Position numbers and translations under genes: made by a program. DNA of 64,000 nt from Bacillus andreraoultii (lineage in GTDB: Bacteria; Bacillota; Bacilli; Bacillales; Caldibacillaceae): contig NZ_LN868937.1 of the NCBI RefSeq assembly GCF_001244735.1, positions 169,876-233,875 of the forward strand, given 5' to 3'. The notes beneath the pieces are model-generated. The model ran no database searches. It was not told the origin of the DNA and was given only the letters and a program-made list of their open reading frames with translations. Below, piece after piece: positions 6,023-56,336 of the stretch. The stretch's first letter is position 1. Every line of letters starts with the position of its first letter.

Positions 6023-7555
6023 TTAATTTCGAATTAAGTAGTCAAACGCACCTAGTGCAGCAGTAGCTCCGGACCCCATGGAGATGATAATTTGTTTGTA
6101 AGCACTGTTTGTACAGTCACCAGCTGCAAAAACACCTGGAATACTTGTTGCACCGTGTTCATCAACAATAATTTCACCCATTCTTGTCCGTTCAAGGGTT
6201 CCTTCTAACCATTCAGTATTAGGAACAAGACCGATTTGAACAAACACACCAGCCAATTCGATATGATGCTCTTCACCAGTTTCACGGTCAATATAAGTTA
6301 GTCCGTTTACTTTATCTGTACCAGTAATTTCTTTCGTTTGAGCATTTTTTATAACGGTCACATTTGGAAGACTATATAAACGATCTTGTAGTACGGAATC
6401 TGCTTTCAATTCTGGAGCAAATTCAATAACGGTCACATGTTTTACAACTCCAGCAAGGTCAATAGCCGCTTCAATACCTGAGTTACCGCCACCAATAACA
6501 GCTACATCTTTACCTGCAAATAACGGTCCATCACAATGTGGACAATACGCTACACCTTTTGTTTTAAACTCTTCTTCACCTGGAACACCGACATTACGCC
6601 AACGAGCACCAGTTGATAGAATAACAGTTTTGCTCTTTAATACGCCACCATTTTCTAATTCAACTTCAACGAGGTTATCTTTCTTTTCTAATCGTTTTGC
6701 TCGTTGTAAATTCATAATATCAACAGGGTATTCTTTTACATGTTCTTCAAGGCTGGCTGCAAGTTGTGGACCTTCTGTATACTTCACACTAATGAAGTTT
6801 TCAATCCCTTTTGTATCCATAATTTGTCCACCGAAACGTTCAGCAACTATTCCTGTACGAATCCCTTTACGTGCTGCATAGATTGCTGCGCTTGCACCAG
6901 CTGGGCCACCACCGACAACAAGAACGTCAAACGGTTCTTTATTTGAAAACTCGGACGGATCACTAGTTTTCCCCAATTTTGCAAGAATTTCTTCTAGTGA
7001 CATACGGCCACTGCCAAATTCCTCACCATTTAAGAAGACAGTTGGGACCGCCAAAATATTTCTGCTTTCAGCTTCTTCTTTAAATGCGGCACCATCAATC
7101 ATTGTGTGAGTAATATTTGGATTGAGTACACTCATTACATTTAGGGCTTGAACAACGTCTGGACAATTATGGCAAGTGAGACTAACGAAAGTTTCAAAAT
7201 GGTATTCACCTGTTAAACTTTTCACTTGATCAATGACTGCTTGATCTACTTTTGGAGGCCTTCCACTTACTTGTAATAAGGCTAAAACAAATGATGTAAA
7301 TTCGTGTCCTAATGGAATACCAGCAAAGACAACGCCAGTATCTTCCCCGATACGATTTACACTAAAGCTAGGTGTTCTTTGTAAGCTTGCATGTTCCACT
7401 TTAATTTTAGGTGACATAGTAGCTAGCTCATCAACAAGAGCTAGCATATCACCTGATACTTTATCAGAACCTGCACTTACTTTAATTAAAATATCATTCT
7501 CCATTAACTGAAGATATTGATTTAATTGTGCCTTAATATCTGCATCTAGTATCAT
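6023..7555 (-). CDS. ahpF: Alkyl hydroperoxide reductase subunit F
   Basis: This NADH-dependent flavoprotein disulfide reductase recharges AhpC during peroxide breakdown in the cytoplasm. The 510-residue protein has an N-terminal double thioredoxin-fold domain with redox pair Cys128/Cys131 (CHNC). Next comes an FAD Rossmann motif VGGGPAG near 214-220, then a thioredoxin-reductase-type CPHC pair at 338-341 and an NAD(P)H-binding motif VIGGGNSG near 353-360. All catalytic cysteines are present. The start is preceded by AAGGAG, and only 13 bases separate it from the ahpC stop, so the two genes form an operon driven from the PerR-controlled promoter upstream of ahpC. Confidence 0.97.
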
Positions 7556-25562: not shown

Positions 25563-25615
25563 TTGAAACTCCCTTTCCGAAATAATTGAAGCCTTTCATT
25601 CAAATCCATGTGGGC

Positions 25616-25735
25616 AAAAAAAACACCAAGCCGATTTAGGCAAGGTGTTAAAAATATCACGACAAAATAAAAGAAATAATCGTCTCTTTTATTTTACCAC
25701 CGTCAACCTTGCCAGCCTCACAGGACTGAATTTAA
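25616..25735 (-). promoter_or_regulatory. PyrR-controlled attenuator leader of pyrP
   Basis: Reading the minus strand, the leader contains the PyrR-binding motif AGTCCTGTGAGGCT (25727-25714), a perfect match to the consensus ARUCCNGNGAGGYU. Next is an AAAATAAAAGA/TCTTTTATTTT hairpin (25695-25664). It ends with a terminator, AACACCTTGCC paired with GGCTTGGTGTT, then eight T (25649-25614). GGCAAGG just after the PyrR motif can pair with part of the terminator arm (CCTTGCC), giving the alternative antiterminator. With UMP bound, PyrR should favour termination. Confidence 0.92.
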
Positions 25736-25761
25736 AGGTACTCATTCACTTGTCAAACAAC

Positions 25762-44001: not shown

Positions 44002-45054
44002 GTGACCTACCAATCCAACAGTAAAGAAACACTTGAACTTATTAAAAAGCTAGTTTCCATTCCAAGTCCATCCGGAAACACAGAAAAAGTTATTTGCTTT
44101 GTCGAGGATTTTTTTAAAAAGATAGGAGTAGAAACATACCGCAATCGAAAAGGTGGATTGATTGCAACAATTAAAGGGAAAGATGACACAAAGCATCGGA
44201 TGTTAACGGCACACGTTGATACATTAGGTGCGATGGTAAAGGAAATAAAAAATAATGGTCGCCTTCGTTTAGATTTAATCGGTGGCTTTGCGTGGAATTC
44301 CATTGAAGGAGAGTATTGTGAAATAGAAACAGCGGAGGGAAAAGTTTATACGGGTACAATACTTATGCATCAACAATCCGTCCATGTTTATAAAGATGCT
44401 AAAACAGCAGAACGAAATCAACAAAATATGGAAGTGCGAATTGATGAAAAGGTAACGAACGCCGAAGAAGTACGGGCACTCGGTATTGAAGTAGGTGATT
44501 TTGTCTCCTTTGATCCACGTGTCCAAATTACAGATTCAGGGTATATAAAGTCACGCCATTTAGATGATAAAGCAAGTGTTGGCATTCTAATGAATTTAAT
44601 AAAACATATAACAAGAAATAATATTGAACTACCATATACAACGCATTTTTTAATCTCTAATAATGAAGAAATTGGTTATGGGGGTAATTCGAATATTCCA
44701 CCTGAAACGGTTGAATATTTAGCAGTCGATATGGGGGCCATAGGTGATGGTCAATCAACTGATGAATACACAGTGTCAATTTGTGTAAAGGATGGAAGTG
44801 GTCCATATCATTATAAATTGCGAAAACGACTTGTCGAACTTGCGAAACAAAATCAAGTTCAGTATAAATTAGATATATATCCTTACTATGGATCGGATGC
44901 TTCAGCAGCAATACGTAGTGGTCATGATATTGTTCACGGCTTAATAGGTCCTGGTATTGACTCATCTCACGCATTTGAACGGACACATATTTCTTCCATA
45001 CAAAACACGGAAAAACTTCTTTACCATTATTTATTATCGAATATGATTGATTAA
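44002..45054 (+). CDS. M42 family metallo-aminopeptidase
   Basis: A 350-residue cytoplasmic dinuclear zinc or cobalt peptidase of the M42 family (FrvX/YsdC type). Motifs are LTAHVDTLGAMVKEI (metal His and Asp, about 72-86), SRHLDDKASVGIL with the bridging Asp, SNNEEIGYGGNS with the catalytic and metal Glu residues, and SSHAFERTH with the last metal His near the C-terminus. It likely forms large oligomers that trim peptides. The start is GTG after AAAGGAAG. Seven bases after the stop codon begins copy B of the two-hairpin repeat. Confidence 0.93.
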   Translation: MTYQSNSKETLELIKKLVSIPSPSGNTEKVICFVEDFFKKIGVETYRNRKGGLIATIKGKDDTKHRMLTAHVDTLGAMVKEIKNNGRLRLDLIGGFAWNSIEGEYCEIETAEGKVYTGTILMHQQSVHVYKDAKTAERNQQNMEVRIDEKVTNAEEVRALGIEVGDFVSFDPRVQITDSGYIKSRHLDDKASVGILMNLIKHITRNNIELPYTTHFLISNNEEIGYGGNSNIPPETVEYLAVDMGAIGDGQSTDEYTVSICVKDGSGPYHYKLRKRLVELAKQNQVQYKLDIYPYYGSDASAAIRSGHDIVHGLIGPGIDSSHAFERTHISSIQNTEKLLYHYLLSNMID

Positions 45055-45180: not shown

Positions 45181-45397
45181 CTATGGAGCAGGAATCCGAC
45201 AATCGTCATCAAAAAGGTTGAGAAGCCTCGAGGTTGTGGGAATTTTAAAAAGGTTTCAAACCTCTGGTATGTGAATGTTGCCACTATAATCATTTGATTC
45301 CTAATTGACGTAAAGAGCGCTTTTATACGTCATGCTCGGTAGGTTCAGTGAAAATTGGCTTTATACTCCTGAAGTTTGGTAACATCCGTAAAAACTA

Positions 45398-45494
45398 GTT
45401 TATAGAAAGAATTTATAAGCCGAACGTGATGGGGATTCCGCAAAAAAGGGTTCATAGAAGCGATCTATGAGCCAAAAATGAGGAGTGTTTTTAA
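45398..45494 (+). repeat. Two units of the 52-bp hairpin repeat
   Basis: The units start at 45398 and 45449. Each holds a hairpin of the type GGTTCATAGA/TCTATGAGCC. The unit spacer GATTCCGCAAAAA is the same as in the six-unit array at 54476-54790. The rest of the gap 45181-45794 holds operator-like sites but no gene. Confidence 0.7.
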
Positions 45495-45668: not shown

Positions 45669-45794
45669 CTACCTCCTCAATTAACAATCTAAAAATGATA
45701 AATACGAATAAATGTAAAAAAATCACTTGAATAAATTCCATTATGAAGACAATCATTTAAAATTTTGTTCTTTAATAGAAACGTGGTGAGAATC

Positions 45795-46832
45795 ATGGCA
45801 GTAACGATCAAGGATGTTGCTAAAAAGGCGAATGTTTCAATCTCAACTGTTTCCCGTGTATTATCAAATAGTCCAAAAATTAGTGAACAAACAAAGCGTC
45901 ATGTCCGTAAAGTTATTAAGGAATTAGGTTATCATGCAAATTTAACTGCGCGATCATTAGTACAACAAACAACAAGAACAATTGGTATTGTGATGAAAAA
46001 CTCTTCAAGGGAAGCGCTCCATACAACTTTTTTGCCTGAAGTTTTGGGTGGAATAACAGCGATTACAAGTAAGTATGAATTTAGTATACGACTGGCTATA
46101 GGTGAATCTGAAGAGGAAATATTCCAAGATGTGACAAAAATGGTACAGGGGAAGCAAGTGGATGGTGTCATTGTTTTATACTCGAAAAAGGATGACCCTG
46201 TAATTAACTATTTAAAGGACAGTCAAATCCCATTTGTGATTTTAGGAAGGCCAACAAAAGATATAAATAAAATTACTTTTGTTGATAACGATAATCGACA
46301 AGCAGCTATGGATGCAACGAACTATATCATTCAGTTAGGACATAAAAGAATTGCCTATATTGGTGATGATACGAAATTTGAAGTAGCTAAGTTACGTATT
46401 ACAGGATTTCGTCAGGCGATACTTGATAATGGGCTTAAGCTGCAAGAGAACTTTATAAAGTATATTAACGGAAACTATGAAGAGGGATTTGAAGCAGTAA
46501 GGGAATTAATGTCACTACCGAATCGTCCTACGGCTATCGTGCTCTCTGATGATATTAATGCACTTATTGTTTTATCTGCATTATCAAATTTAGCTATAAA
46601 GATTCCAGAGGATGTTAGTATAATCAGTTTTAATAATTCAACGATTGCTAGAATTACTTATCCGCGATTGACAACAGTAGATGTGCAAGTTTATCAGCTT
46701 GGACAAGAGGCTGCAAAGGCGATAATCGAACAAGTGAATGAACCGAATGTGATAAAGAAAAGCTTACTTATTCCGACGGTTATTATAGAAAGAGAATCAT
46801 GTAAAAAACTAACAACTGTAAATGAAATTTAA
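45795..46832 (+). CDS. LacI-family transcriptional regulator (MalR-like)
   Basis: A 345-residue LacI-type repressor. It has an N-terminal helix-turn-helix with hinge (MAVTIKDVAKKANVSISTVS through RSLVQQTT) and a periplasmic-binding-protein-like sugar-sensing domain (about 60-335). It is encoded 40 bases upstream of an alpha-glucosidase gene, so it probably controls use of maltose, isomaltose or related sugars. ATG 45795 follows GGTGAG; an earlier ATG ten codons upstream does not match the family N-terminus. Two operator-like sites lie upstream and suggest autoregulation. No sugar transporter is encoded nearby. Confidence 0.88.
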   Translation: MAVTIKDVAKKANVSISTVSRVLSNSPKISEQTKRHVRKVIKELGYHANLTARSLVQQTTRTIGIVMKNSSREALHTTFLPEVLGGITAITSKYEFSIRLAIGESEEEIFQDVTKMVQGKQVDGVIVLYSKKDDPVINYLKDSQIPFVILGRPTKDINKITFVDNDNRQAAMDATNYIIQLGHKRIAYIGDDTKFEVAKLRITGFRQAILDNGLKLQENFIKYINGNYEEGFEAVRELMSLPNRPTAIVLSDDINALIVLSALSNLAIKIPEDVSIISFNNSTIARITYPRLTTVDVQVYQLGQEAAKAIIEQVNEPNVIKKSLLIPTVIIERESCKKLTTVNEI

Positions 46833-53342: not shown

Positions 53343-54017
53343 TTAATCATTCCATTTATATGTCCAAAACCGTTCAAATTGTAACCATTTTATCGCATCT
53401 GGGTCTTTTGCTTCTAGTCGCTTAGACATATCATCGTAAAACAAGGCTGTTTGTGTTTCATGTGCTTTTATTGCCTCAATTTTTTCATTTGAACAAGCAA
53501 GTACATCATGAATAATATCTGGTTTCCCCAATTCCTCTTCACAATTATTAGAAAAAGCGACACAATGAAGTTTAGGTCGTGATTCTTTCGGAAGACGTTC
53601 GACTGCTCGCACAACAGCTCTCCCAGTAGCCTCATGGTCTGGATGTACAGAATATCCAGGATAAAATGTAATAATTAAGCTTGGATTTAGCTCGTCAATG
53701 ATTTCAGAAATGAGGTTACTAACCTTTTCTTCATCTTCAAATTCCACCGTTTTATCACGGAATCCAAGCATCCGTAAATCTTTTACACCCATAGCCTTTG
53801 CTGAATTTTGTAATTCCTTTTTTCTAATTTTCGGGAGAGATTCCCGTGTTGCAAAAGGTGGGTTCCCAAGGTTCCGGCCCATTTCCCCTAATGTTAAGCA
53901 CGCATACGTAACGGGTGTCCCTTGTTTAACATGGGAAGCAATCGTTCCTGAAACGCCAAAAGCCTCGTCATCGGGATGGGGGAATACGACTAGAACATGC
54001 CTTTCTTTGTCAATCAT
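53343..54017 (-). CDS. bshB2: Bacillithiol biosynthesis deacetylase BshB2
   Basis: A 224-residue zinc-dependent deacetylase of the PIG-L/LmbE family that removes the acetyl group from N-acetylglucosaminyl-malate during bacillithiol synthesis. The metal motif is HPDDEAFG (about 14-21), and the third metal histidine lies in PGYSVHPDHEATGRAV (about 129-144). AAAGGAG precedes the ATG. It lies 38 bases after yojF on the same strand, the same pair order as yojF-yojG in B. subtilis. The BshB2 name rather than BshB1 rests on this partner and sequence; BshB proteins also act as bacillithiol-conjugate amidases in some species. Confidence 0.92.
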   Translation of the reverse strand: MIDKERHVLVVFPHPDDEAFGVSGTIASHVKQGTPVTYACLTLGEMGRNLGNPPFATRESLPKIRKKELQNSAKAMGVKDLRMLGFRDKTVEFEDEEKVSNLISEIIDELNPSLIITFYPGYSVHPDHEATGRAVVRAVERLPKESRPKLHCVAFSNNCEEELGKPDIIHDVLACSNEKIEAIKAHETQTALFYDDMSKRLEAKDPDAIKWLQFERFWTYKWND

Positions 54018-54055: not shown

Positions 54056-54403
54056 CTATTCAAATGGTGTTCGACTAATTTCTAATGCGATTGCTAATTT
54101 ACCCGAAGGATCTAACCCGGCCATTAAAAGACGCCCGTATTCATCTAACTCATAATGGGTTAATCCTTCACCATAAATCCAACCGAATTCCATTTTAAGG
54201 CCAACTCGAAACGGTCCTTCTCCGGCAATCGCTCCTCTTTCATACCGTACCCTTGCATTGCGAATAAACGCTCCGGCATTGAAAAATGAAGCGTCATGAT
54301 GAGTTGCATACGCACCATTCGTCGTTTCTAAATGTATATAAACATCTTCATTTACAAATTGATTAATTAGTTCTTGCACTCGCGATTTATTAAATGGCTC
54401 CAT
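54056..54403 (-). CDS. yojF: YojF family protein (DUF1806), partner of BshB2
   Basis: A 115-residue protein of the DUF1806 family, recognised by LETTNGAYATHHDASFFNAGAFIRNARVRYERGAI and GWIYGEGLTHYELDEYGRLLMAGLDPSGKLAIALEIS. The function is unknown, but it is regularly encoded beside bshB2. ATG 54403 follows GAGGAGG at a somewhat long distance; the TTG four codons earlier is too close to that site. It is the first gene of the yojF-bshB2 operon. Confidence 0.92.
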   Translation of the reverse strand: MEPFNKSRVQELINQFVNEDVYIHLETTNGAYATHHDASFFNAGAFIRNARVRYERGAIAGEGPFRVGLKMEFGWIYGEGLTHYELDEYGRLLMAGLDPSGKLAIALEISRTPFE

Positions 54404-54475
54404 AAAAATGTACAACCTCCTCTGGAAGAATTATATTTAATTATAATTCACAGTCAAATAAATAAAAAGATTAAA

Positions 54476-54790
54476 GCCTTTATAGAAGGGGGCTATGGGC
54501 TGAAAATAATGGGGATTCTTCGGGGATTGGTTCATGGAAGGGGGCTATGAGCTGAAAATAATGGAGTTTCCACGAAAAAGGGTTTATAGAAGAGTTCTAT
54601 GAGCCGAAAATGATGTGGATTCCGCAAAAAGTGGTTCATAGAACGAATCTATGAGCCCGAAAATCGGTTGAAGGATCAAAAATGGGTTCATAGAACGAAT
54701 CTATGATCCCGAAAATCGTGTGAAAGAACAAAAATAGGTTCATAGAAGAGTTCTGTGATCCAAAAATGATTGCAAACCTCTGCATTTTTC
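54476..54790 (+). repeat. Six-unit tandem array of a 52-bp hairpin repeat
   Basis: Units begin near 54476, 54529, 54580, 54633, 54684 and 54737, spaced 51-53 bases. Each contains a hairpin of the form GGTTCATAGA/TCTATGAGCC and then (C)GAAAAT, with an A-rich stretch before the next unit. The outer units have diverged most. Two further units lie at 45398-45494. The array is between yojF and nagA, in a gap without genes. Confidence 0.85.
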
Positions 54791-55130: not shown

Positions 55131-56336
55131 ATGAAAATGAACAATACTTCAAACCGGATCCTTCTCAAAAATATGAGAGTTTTTGCAGGAGATCAAATGA
55201 TCGAACACGGATACATTAAGATGGAAGATGGGAAAATAACGGACATTGGCGATGTAGAGAACTTACAAACAGATGGTGATGATTATACAGAAGTTGCCAT
55301 TTTAGAAAACTATATTGCTGTTCCTGGTTTTATTGACATGCATATTCATGGAGTAAATGGAGCAGATACGATGGACGCTACAAAGGAAGCTTTAGATACG
55401 ATGACCGAGTCGTTACCGAAAGAAGGAACGACGAGTTTTCTTGCAACGACAATGACTCAACATGTAGATGCAATTGAAAAGGCGCTTCGTAATGTAGGTG
55501 ATTATATTAAAAATGGCTCCACACCAGGAAGAGCTGAAATTATAGGTATTCATTTAGAGGGACCGTTTGTTAATAGTGAAAAAGCTGGTGCACAGCCAGA
55601 AGAATTTATGATTAACCCAGATATTGAAATTTTTGAAGAATGGCAAAAGCTTACGAATAATATGATTAAATTAGTAACGGTTGCTCCTGAATTACCAGGA
55701 GGATTACCTTTTGTTCGACATCTAAACAGTCATGGGGTTATCGCTTCAATTGGGCATACGAATGCGACTTATGATCAAGTGGTGGAAGCAATCGATGCGG
55801 GTGCAACTCATGTAACACATTTATATAATCAAATGCGTGGTTTGCATCACCGCGAACCTGGCGTTGTCGGTGCAGCTTTCCTTCATGAAGAGCTAAAAGC
55901 AGAGATGATCGTAGATGGCGTTCATGTTCATCCGAAAATGGTCAAATTGGCGTATGAACAAAAGCATGATGATGGCTTAATTTTAGTTACGGATGCAATG
56001 CGAGCAAAATGTTTACCTAATGGTACGTATGACTTAGGCGGGCAAGATGTTCATGTGAAAGATGGTAGAGCTACTTTAGCCGACGGAACTTTAGCTGGTA
56101 GTATTTTAAAGCTCGGTCAAGCAGTTAAAAATATGATTGAGTTTTCAGGCTGTACACTGAAGGAAACAATTCAAATGGCTTCGGTTAATCCAGCCGTACA
56201 ATTAAATATTTTTGATAGAAAAGGAAGCATAGAAGTAGGGAAAGACGCTGATATTGTTATTTTAGACGATCAATTAAATGTTCAATATACGTATTGTATG
56301 GGGAAGTTAGCGTATGAGAAAAACGACGGAGTTTAA
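55131..56336 (+). CDS. nagA: N-acetylglucosamine-6-phosphate deacetylase
   Basis: A cytoplasmic 401-residue amidohydrolase that deacetylates GlcNAc-6-phosphate, the first step in using cell-wall or chitin amino sugars. Metal and substrate motifs are PGFIDMHIHGVNGAD (about 65-79), GIHLEGPFVNSEKAGA, SIGHTNATYDQV, THLYNQMRGLHHREPG and LVTDAM. GAAAGGAAG precedes the ATG at 55131; another ATG two codons later is possible. It is the first of three genes (nagA-nagB-nagR), preceded by a NagR-like operator, so derepression by GlcNAc-6-P or GlcN-6-P is expected. Confidence 0.97.
   Translation: MKMNNTSNRILLKNMRVFAGDQMIEHGYIKMEDGKITDIGDVENLQTDGDDYTEVAILENYIAVPGFIDMHIHGVNGADTMDATKEALDTMTESLPKEGTTSFLATTMTQHVDAIEKALRNVGDYIKNGSTPGRAEIIGIHLEGPFVNSEKAGAQPEEFMINPDIEIFEEWQKLTNNMIKLVTVAPELPGGLPFVRHLNSHGVIASIGHTNATYDQVVEAIDAGATHVTHLYNQMRGLHHREPGVVGAAFLHEELKAEMIVDGVHVHPKMVKLAYEQKHDDGLILVTDAMRAKCLPNGTYDLGGQDVHVKDGRATLADGTLAGSILKLGQAVKNMIEFSGCTLKETIQMASVNPAVQLNIFDRKGSIEVGKDADIVILDDQLNVQYTYCMGKLAYEKNDGV

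Follow-up and report, generated by a model that had tools for sequence, protein, structure and literature searches.

A leading-strand-oriented, helically phased 52-bp tandem repeat of Bacillus andreraoultii and other Bacillales, with a possible role in nucleoid architecture

In Bacillus, tandem repeats of 51-53 nt form the most abundant class of such repeats, according to Subirana and Messeguer (2021; PMC8161180), and they occur in other Firmicutes as well. The class combines a constant size with a variable sequence, and its function was left without explanation; nucleoid protein binding and small RNAs were both proposed, with no decision between them, and the 52-nt repeats of B. coagulans were reported to be transcribed (PMC8161180). 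The array studied here lies in a 64,000-nucleotide stretch of the Bacillus andreraoultii genome (the window) and is a member of this class. It comprises six units of 52 bp, where the class is delimited by at least four repeats of 51-53 nt; its period is not a multiple of three; the arrays are intergenic and hence non-coding; and the same genome holds other dyad families with periods of 52-53 bp (GGTCATCTAGA-type; L108:18686-18827 and L123:5367-5556). Period, non-coding placement, taxonomic range, the presence of several families and many arrays per genome, and differences in unit number between related genomes all agree with the published account. Sequence, in contrast, was described as species-specific and without conservation, whereas the core ATAGA-N5-TCTAT is common to about 30 species. 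This shared core corrects the description of the class and does not exclude membership, and the dyad geometry recurs in the published consensus repeats. To the published account, which reports no sequence conservation, replication polarity, dyad rule or helical register, the present analysis adds a dyad rule with a shared core, helical spacing, leading-strand polarity, and a 3'/convergent placement with persistence at orthologous sites.

An earlier note, made from the sequence alone, had described a tandem array of a hairpin repeat in the window, with six units at spacings of 51-53 bases. The array and its six units are real, and the spacing proved to be exactly 52 bp throughout (Table 1). Two more units of the family had been placed about 9 kb away; they are present, again one 52-bp step apart, and share the linker GATTCCGCAAAAA with the main array. 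All eight units have the same layout, with an arm of 10 nt, a spacer of 5 nt, a second arm of 10 nt and a linker of 27. Tandem Repeats Finder scored the array at 164 and 190, and a covariance model search of the window returned exactly these eight units on the + strand (E 5e-17 to 5e-8), besides weaker hits on the reverse strand that echo these palindromes; nothing else in the window qualified as a credible unit. The outer units of the main array are decayed, the first most of all. The probable nagA gene on the right flank is followed by a glucosamine-6-phosphate isomerase gene (nagB-like), and the array sits between divergent genes, as one of few to do so and contrary to the trend of the class. 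Elsewhere in the window, a PyrR binding site (RF00515) at 25615-25742 on the - strand is the sole Rfam match at gathering score.

Table 1. Repeat units and neighbouring genes, in window coordinates
Feature	Position	Strand	Evidence
Main array, six 25-bp dyads and 27-bp linkers	54477..54761	+	Covariance model, repeat analysis
Main-array dyads	54477-54501, 54529-54553, 54581-54605, 54633-54657, 54685-54709, 54737-54761	+	
Two-unit satellite copy (dyads 45397-45421 and 45449-45473)	45397..45473	+	
DUF1806 family gene (yojF-like), left flank of main array, reading away from it	54056..54415	-	PF08830, E 8e-53
PIG-L deacetylase gene adjoining the DUF1806 gene, bshB2-like by context	53343..54017	-	
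Amidohydrolase gene, right flank of main array, probably nagA (N-acetylglucosamine-6-phosphate deacetylase)	55131..56336	+	
M42 peptidase gene, upstream of two-unit copy	44002..45054	+	
LacI-type regulator gene, downstream of two-unit copy	45765..46832	+	

The unit is a 25-bp base-centred dyad followed by a 27-bp linker, and this geometry is common to many sequence families. A base-centred dyad was found in 151 of 154 arrays with the ATAGA core, in 24 of 28 other arrays and in all eight published consensus repeats, and the size of the dyad stays within 25-27 bp across unrelated families and the published repeats. Complementarity stops at +/-13; at +/-12 the two bases are complementary in 98% of the arrays with the core and in 93% of the others, despite differences in the inner arms (such as TGTCCTTCAT-N7-ATGAAGGACA and GTCGTCATAG-N5-GTATGACGAC). 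Among 423 unit steps, 333 measure 52 bp and 58 measure 51 bp, and maxima in the mean A/T profile recur every 10.4 bp, a period that takes 33% of the power versus 3.8% if the profile were flat. Length variants are few and differ by about one turn. In G001, a genome of the same genus, the period is 115 bp (52 + 63), the spacer of 5 alternating with one of 16 and the linker staying at 27, which is a spacer change of one helical turn; a local 42-bp period occurs in L098. Strong intrinsic curvature was rejected, since the curvature predicted with approximate wedge parameters is only moderately raised.

Compensated stem changes had been proposed for the window array, on the example of TATGAGCC versus TGTGATCC. 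This example was mistaken: the opposite arm, GGTTCATAGA, is unchanged, so that the difference leaves a T-T mismatch and a T.G wobble. Across species, three positions of the arms do show compensatory change and two others do not. Covariation between arrays reaches z values of 6.8, 5.2 and 6.4 at positions -1, -2 and -6, that within arrays is weak at -1 and -2 (z 2.8 and 3.5), and there is none at -3 and -4. Position -4 (pair 15/37 of A2) has T/G against A/C, and about half of the units are mismatched there. G.U pairs are at or below expectation when read in the sense direction in tandem gene contexts. A structured RNA would be marked by covarying pairs with G.U preferred over A-C, and here covariation is confined to some of the pairs.

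The three covarying positions could nevertheless mean that the units work at the RNA level, whether by stabilising 3' UTRs, as small RNAs or as a protein sponge. The transcription of the B. coagulans repeats and the RNA role suggested for the class (PMC8161180) speak for this, as does the predicted fold of the window array, whose leading-strand RNA is far better than shuffles (z -8, versus z -4 for the other strand). Set against them are the lack of any G.U preference, the frequent mismatch at -4, the many dyads of genome G119 that would form hairpins of only about -4 kcal/mol, and a polarity that tracks replication even between convergent genes (see below). The window array, moreover, gave no Rfam match at gathering score, on which a known Rfam family was rejected, and no terminator-like site was found in it. 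Terminator arrays were likewise rejected, both on this ground and from tandem-context arrays in general, where the sense strand is the A-tract strand in 23 and the T-tract strand in 12 (p 0.09). A transcribed hairpin array, one of three options raised in the earlier note, is therefore less supported, and we judge it unlikely. On balance the data point to half-sites in DNA more than to a selected RNA helix, although a single protein does not fully account for the covariation.

Origin and terminus were placed by GC skew in three genomes (G000, G119 and G242). Of their 49 arrays, 47 have a dyad asymmetry aligned with the leading strand (p 4e-12, a value that overstates the evidence because the arrays common to G119 and G242 are non-independent), and 43 have a linker polarity that follows it. 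Arrays between convergent genes follow the leading strand in 18 of 19 cases, and head-on tandem cases in two of three. Model hits in G122, G175 and G331, where replichores were not derived from skew, follow the same two-arc layout, apart from some exceptions. In G119 and G242 the units have T at -4 and C at +4 on the leading strand, opposite to the purine skew of that strand, so that composition does not explain the polarity there; it could account for the asymmetry in the B. andreraoultii genome (T at -3, G at +3). Hairpin stability was rejected as the cause of polarity, as it yields no consistent strand rule, the more stable strand being the leading one in G000, the other one in G119 and neither in G242. 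The only G242 array that opposes the leading strand (L321, C1:24731-24956) is the orthologue of a G119 array (L319, C1:4485650-4486007) that lies just left of the origin, and its orientation may be due to relocation from one side of the origin to the other.

Dyads that are asymmetric and imperfect, and that point with replication on both replichores, would also suit a polar, Ter-like fork barrier, at which a protein bound to the dyad stops forks arriving from one direction only. This is very improbable, because the Bacillus terminator protein RTP (PF02334) does not score above cut-off in any array-bearing genome tested, a result on which the RTP/Ter system was rejected, and because the G119 arrays are spread along both chromosome arms and are not gathered at the terminus. 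The same spread led us to drop an origin-proximal clustering that had appeared among the own-genome matches first listed.

The genome-wide search for the unit that the earlier note had called for gave 260 BLAST matches in the B. andreraoultii genome (4.11 Mb, 14 contigs); the loci concerned lie on contigs C12, C13 and C14. At least about 15 array loci are present, and the true number must be higher, since two of 20 arbitrary 20-kb samples of this genome held arrays absent from the first list. One region of C13 carries about 100 units with a 208-bp higher-order repeat (L032), a copy number made uncertain by the N gaps beside it. Assembly breaks, N gaps or duplicated array ends were seen at arrays in several places (L031:9544-9621, L032:16787, L038:8907, L092:1 and L095:1), which makes unit counts from draft assemblies unreliable. 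Two other kinds of repeat were met beside the arrays: a GGTCATCTAGA-type array lies about 90 bp from an ATAGA-core array, and 45-bp repeats (15 codons; L031:1566-1803 and 6174-6524), probably inside a repetitive surface-protein gene, adjoin a 52-bp array in the same genome.

Beyond the genus, units occur in G005, which belongs to a different genus of the family; their outer pair is T-A in place of G-C. This genome also has a CRISPR array (L093:13213-14981, repeat ATTTCAATCCACGCACCCATGTAGAGTGCGAC), which lies some 6 kb away from a 52-bp array. A tandem pattern search for the core found at least 117 stretches in about 30 Bacillales species. When 397 genomes of the order, representing 135 genera, were searched with model R2, built mostly from such stretches, 31 of them in 12 genera matched. 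The core is conserved across genera and families. Plasmid or phage origin was rejected, there being no blastn match to either at E 1e-3. A Bacillus-type array in a record titled Chryseobacterium sp. ISL-80 (L211) looks like contamination or mislabelling.

With flanking genes taken from a crude gene caller, 26 arrays had convergent, 41 tandem and 8 divergent flanks, versus 20, 81 and 39 among control gaps of at least 200 bp. Convergent flanks are enriched (odds ratio 3.2, p 8e-4) and divergent ones depleted (odds ratio 0.31, p 3e-3), the arrays lying mostly in 3'/convergent intergenic regions. Repeated palindromes in such 3' regions recall REP elements mobilised by a RAYT (Y1_Tnp) transposase. 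An associated Y1_Tnp gene (PF01797) is, however, absent from the array-bearing genomes G090 and G220 and present in genomes such as G002, G009 and G016, where no arrays were found; REP/RAYT mobilisation is disfavoured on these grounds and seems extremely unlikely.

Of the 16 arrays in G119, nine have an orthologue in G242, in which the unit number is usually different. In one slot, flanked by the same pair of genes (62-83% identity), an array is present both in the B. andreraoultii genome and in Sutcliffiella-type genomes of another family. Empty orthologous sites occur, and a comparison of two such cases could demonstrate neither a clean boundary of insertion nor a target duplication. Within a locus the arrays are homogenised, as in the higher-order repeat of L032. 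Variable unit number, empty sites, homogenisation and a polarity that follows replication would all fit a neutral or selfish satellite, devoid of host function and spreading by fork-associated slippage or by insertion at lagging-strand single-stranded DNA, its polarity arising as only one orientation is stable or insertable. We regard this account as rather doubtful. By itself it leaves unexplained the 51-53-bp period and 25-bp dyad in unrelated families, the 10.4-bp phasing and the arrays in the same slot in different genera and families, and hairpin stability supplies no consistent strand rule. Replication slippage, another of the three options in the earlier note, explains why orthologous arrays differ in unit number, yet it does not account for the fixed period, the fixed dyad geometry or the polarity with respect to replication.

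The remaining option, a protein-binding REP-like cluster, fits best in location, helical phasing and polarity, and our preferred reading extends it: the arrays may form a polar, helically phased, putative protein-binding satellite with a role in nucleoid architecture. We give this a probability of about 45%. The arrays keep a constant geometry and a 10.4-bp phasing from which variants depart by about one turn, and they retain their placement and leading-strand alignment and persist at orthologous sites despite turnover of sequence and unit number; helical register and replication direction together suggest a DNA-protein architectural role rather than one in RNA. A run of 25-bp near-palindromic sites five helical turns apart, and thus all on the same face of the DNA, would act as a DNA-level element. 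Each dyad could be occupied by a putative dimeric DNA-binding protein, and neighbouring dimers may touch across the 27-bp linker to build an ordered, polar DNA-protein filament. Such a filament might serve chromosome architecture in a BIME/REP-like manner, by acting as an element of the nucleoid or of supercoil domains that always presents the same orientation to the replication fork, its unit number changing through slippage or unequal exchange.

Several observations count against this satellite model. Arms that vary and yet remain self-complementary are not predicted by one protein of fixed specificity, the curvature is only moderately raised, one-turn variants are few, the window array lies between divergent genes, species differ in unit number and arrays are missing from some sites. 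A bolder version, which we think somewhat doubtful, is a conserved bacterial chromatin system in which a dedicated putative protein builds polar filaments on phased 52-bp satellites, set in the direction of the fork at conserved intergenic sites of Bacillales, and so organises the chromosome during replication. If confirmed, it would mean that bacteria possess a chromosome-organising system based on satellite DNA. For a class without known function, the polarity, the helical phasing and the conservation of position lead to testable predictions, namely that half-turn insertions disrupt the element, that inversion matters and that a protein binds.

Among other known systems, CRISPR arrays also have palindromic repeats at regular spacing. 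Here, unlike in CRISPR, the linkers are related to one another and shared between units and arrays, and the whole 52-bp unit repeats; a CRISPR, which calls for unrelated spacers, was rejected, as the earlier note had argued. The BIME/REP arrays of enterobacteria, in which BIMEs bind gyrase, IHF or Pol I, are likewise tandem palindromic units mostly in 3'/convergent intergenic regions, a location that the class shares and the window array itself does not, and a protein-binding or supercoil role is plausible by this likeness. The arrays described here differ from them in their greater length, strict 52-bp period, replication polarity and lack of a link to RAYT. KOPS/SRS, Chi and Ter are oriented relative to replication, as the 52-bp units are, but these are short or single sequences, whereas the units described here, in genomes where RTP did not score above cut-off, form long phased arrays.
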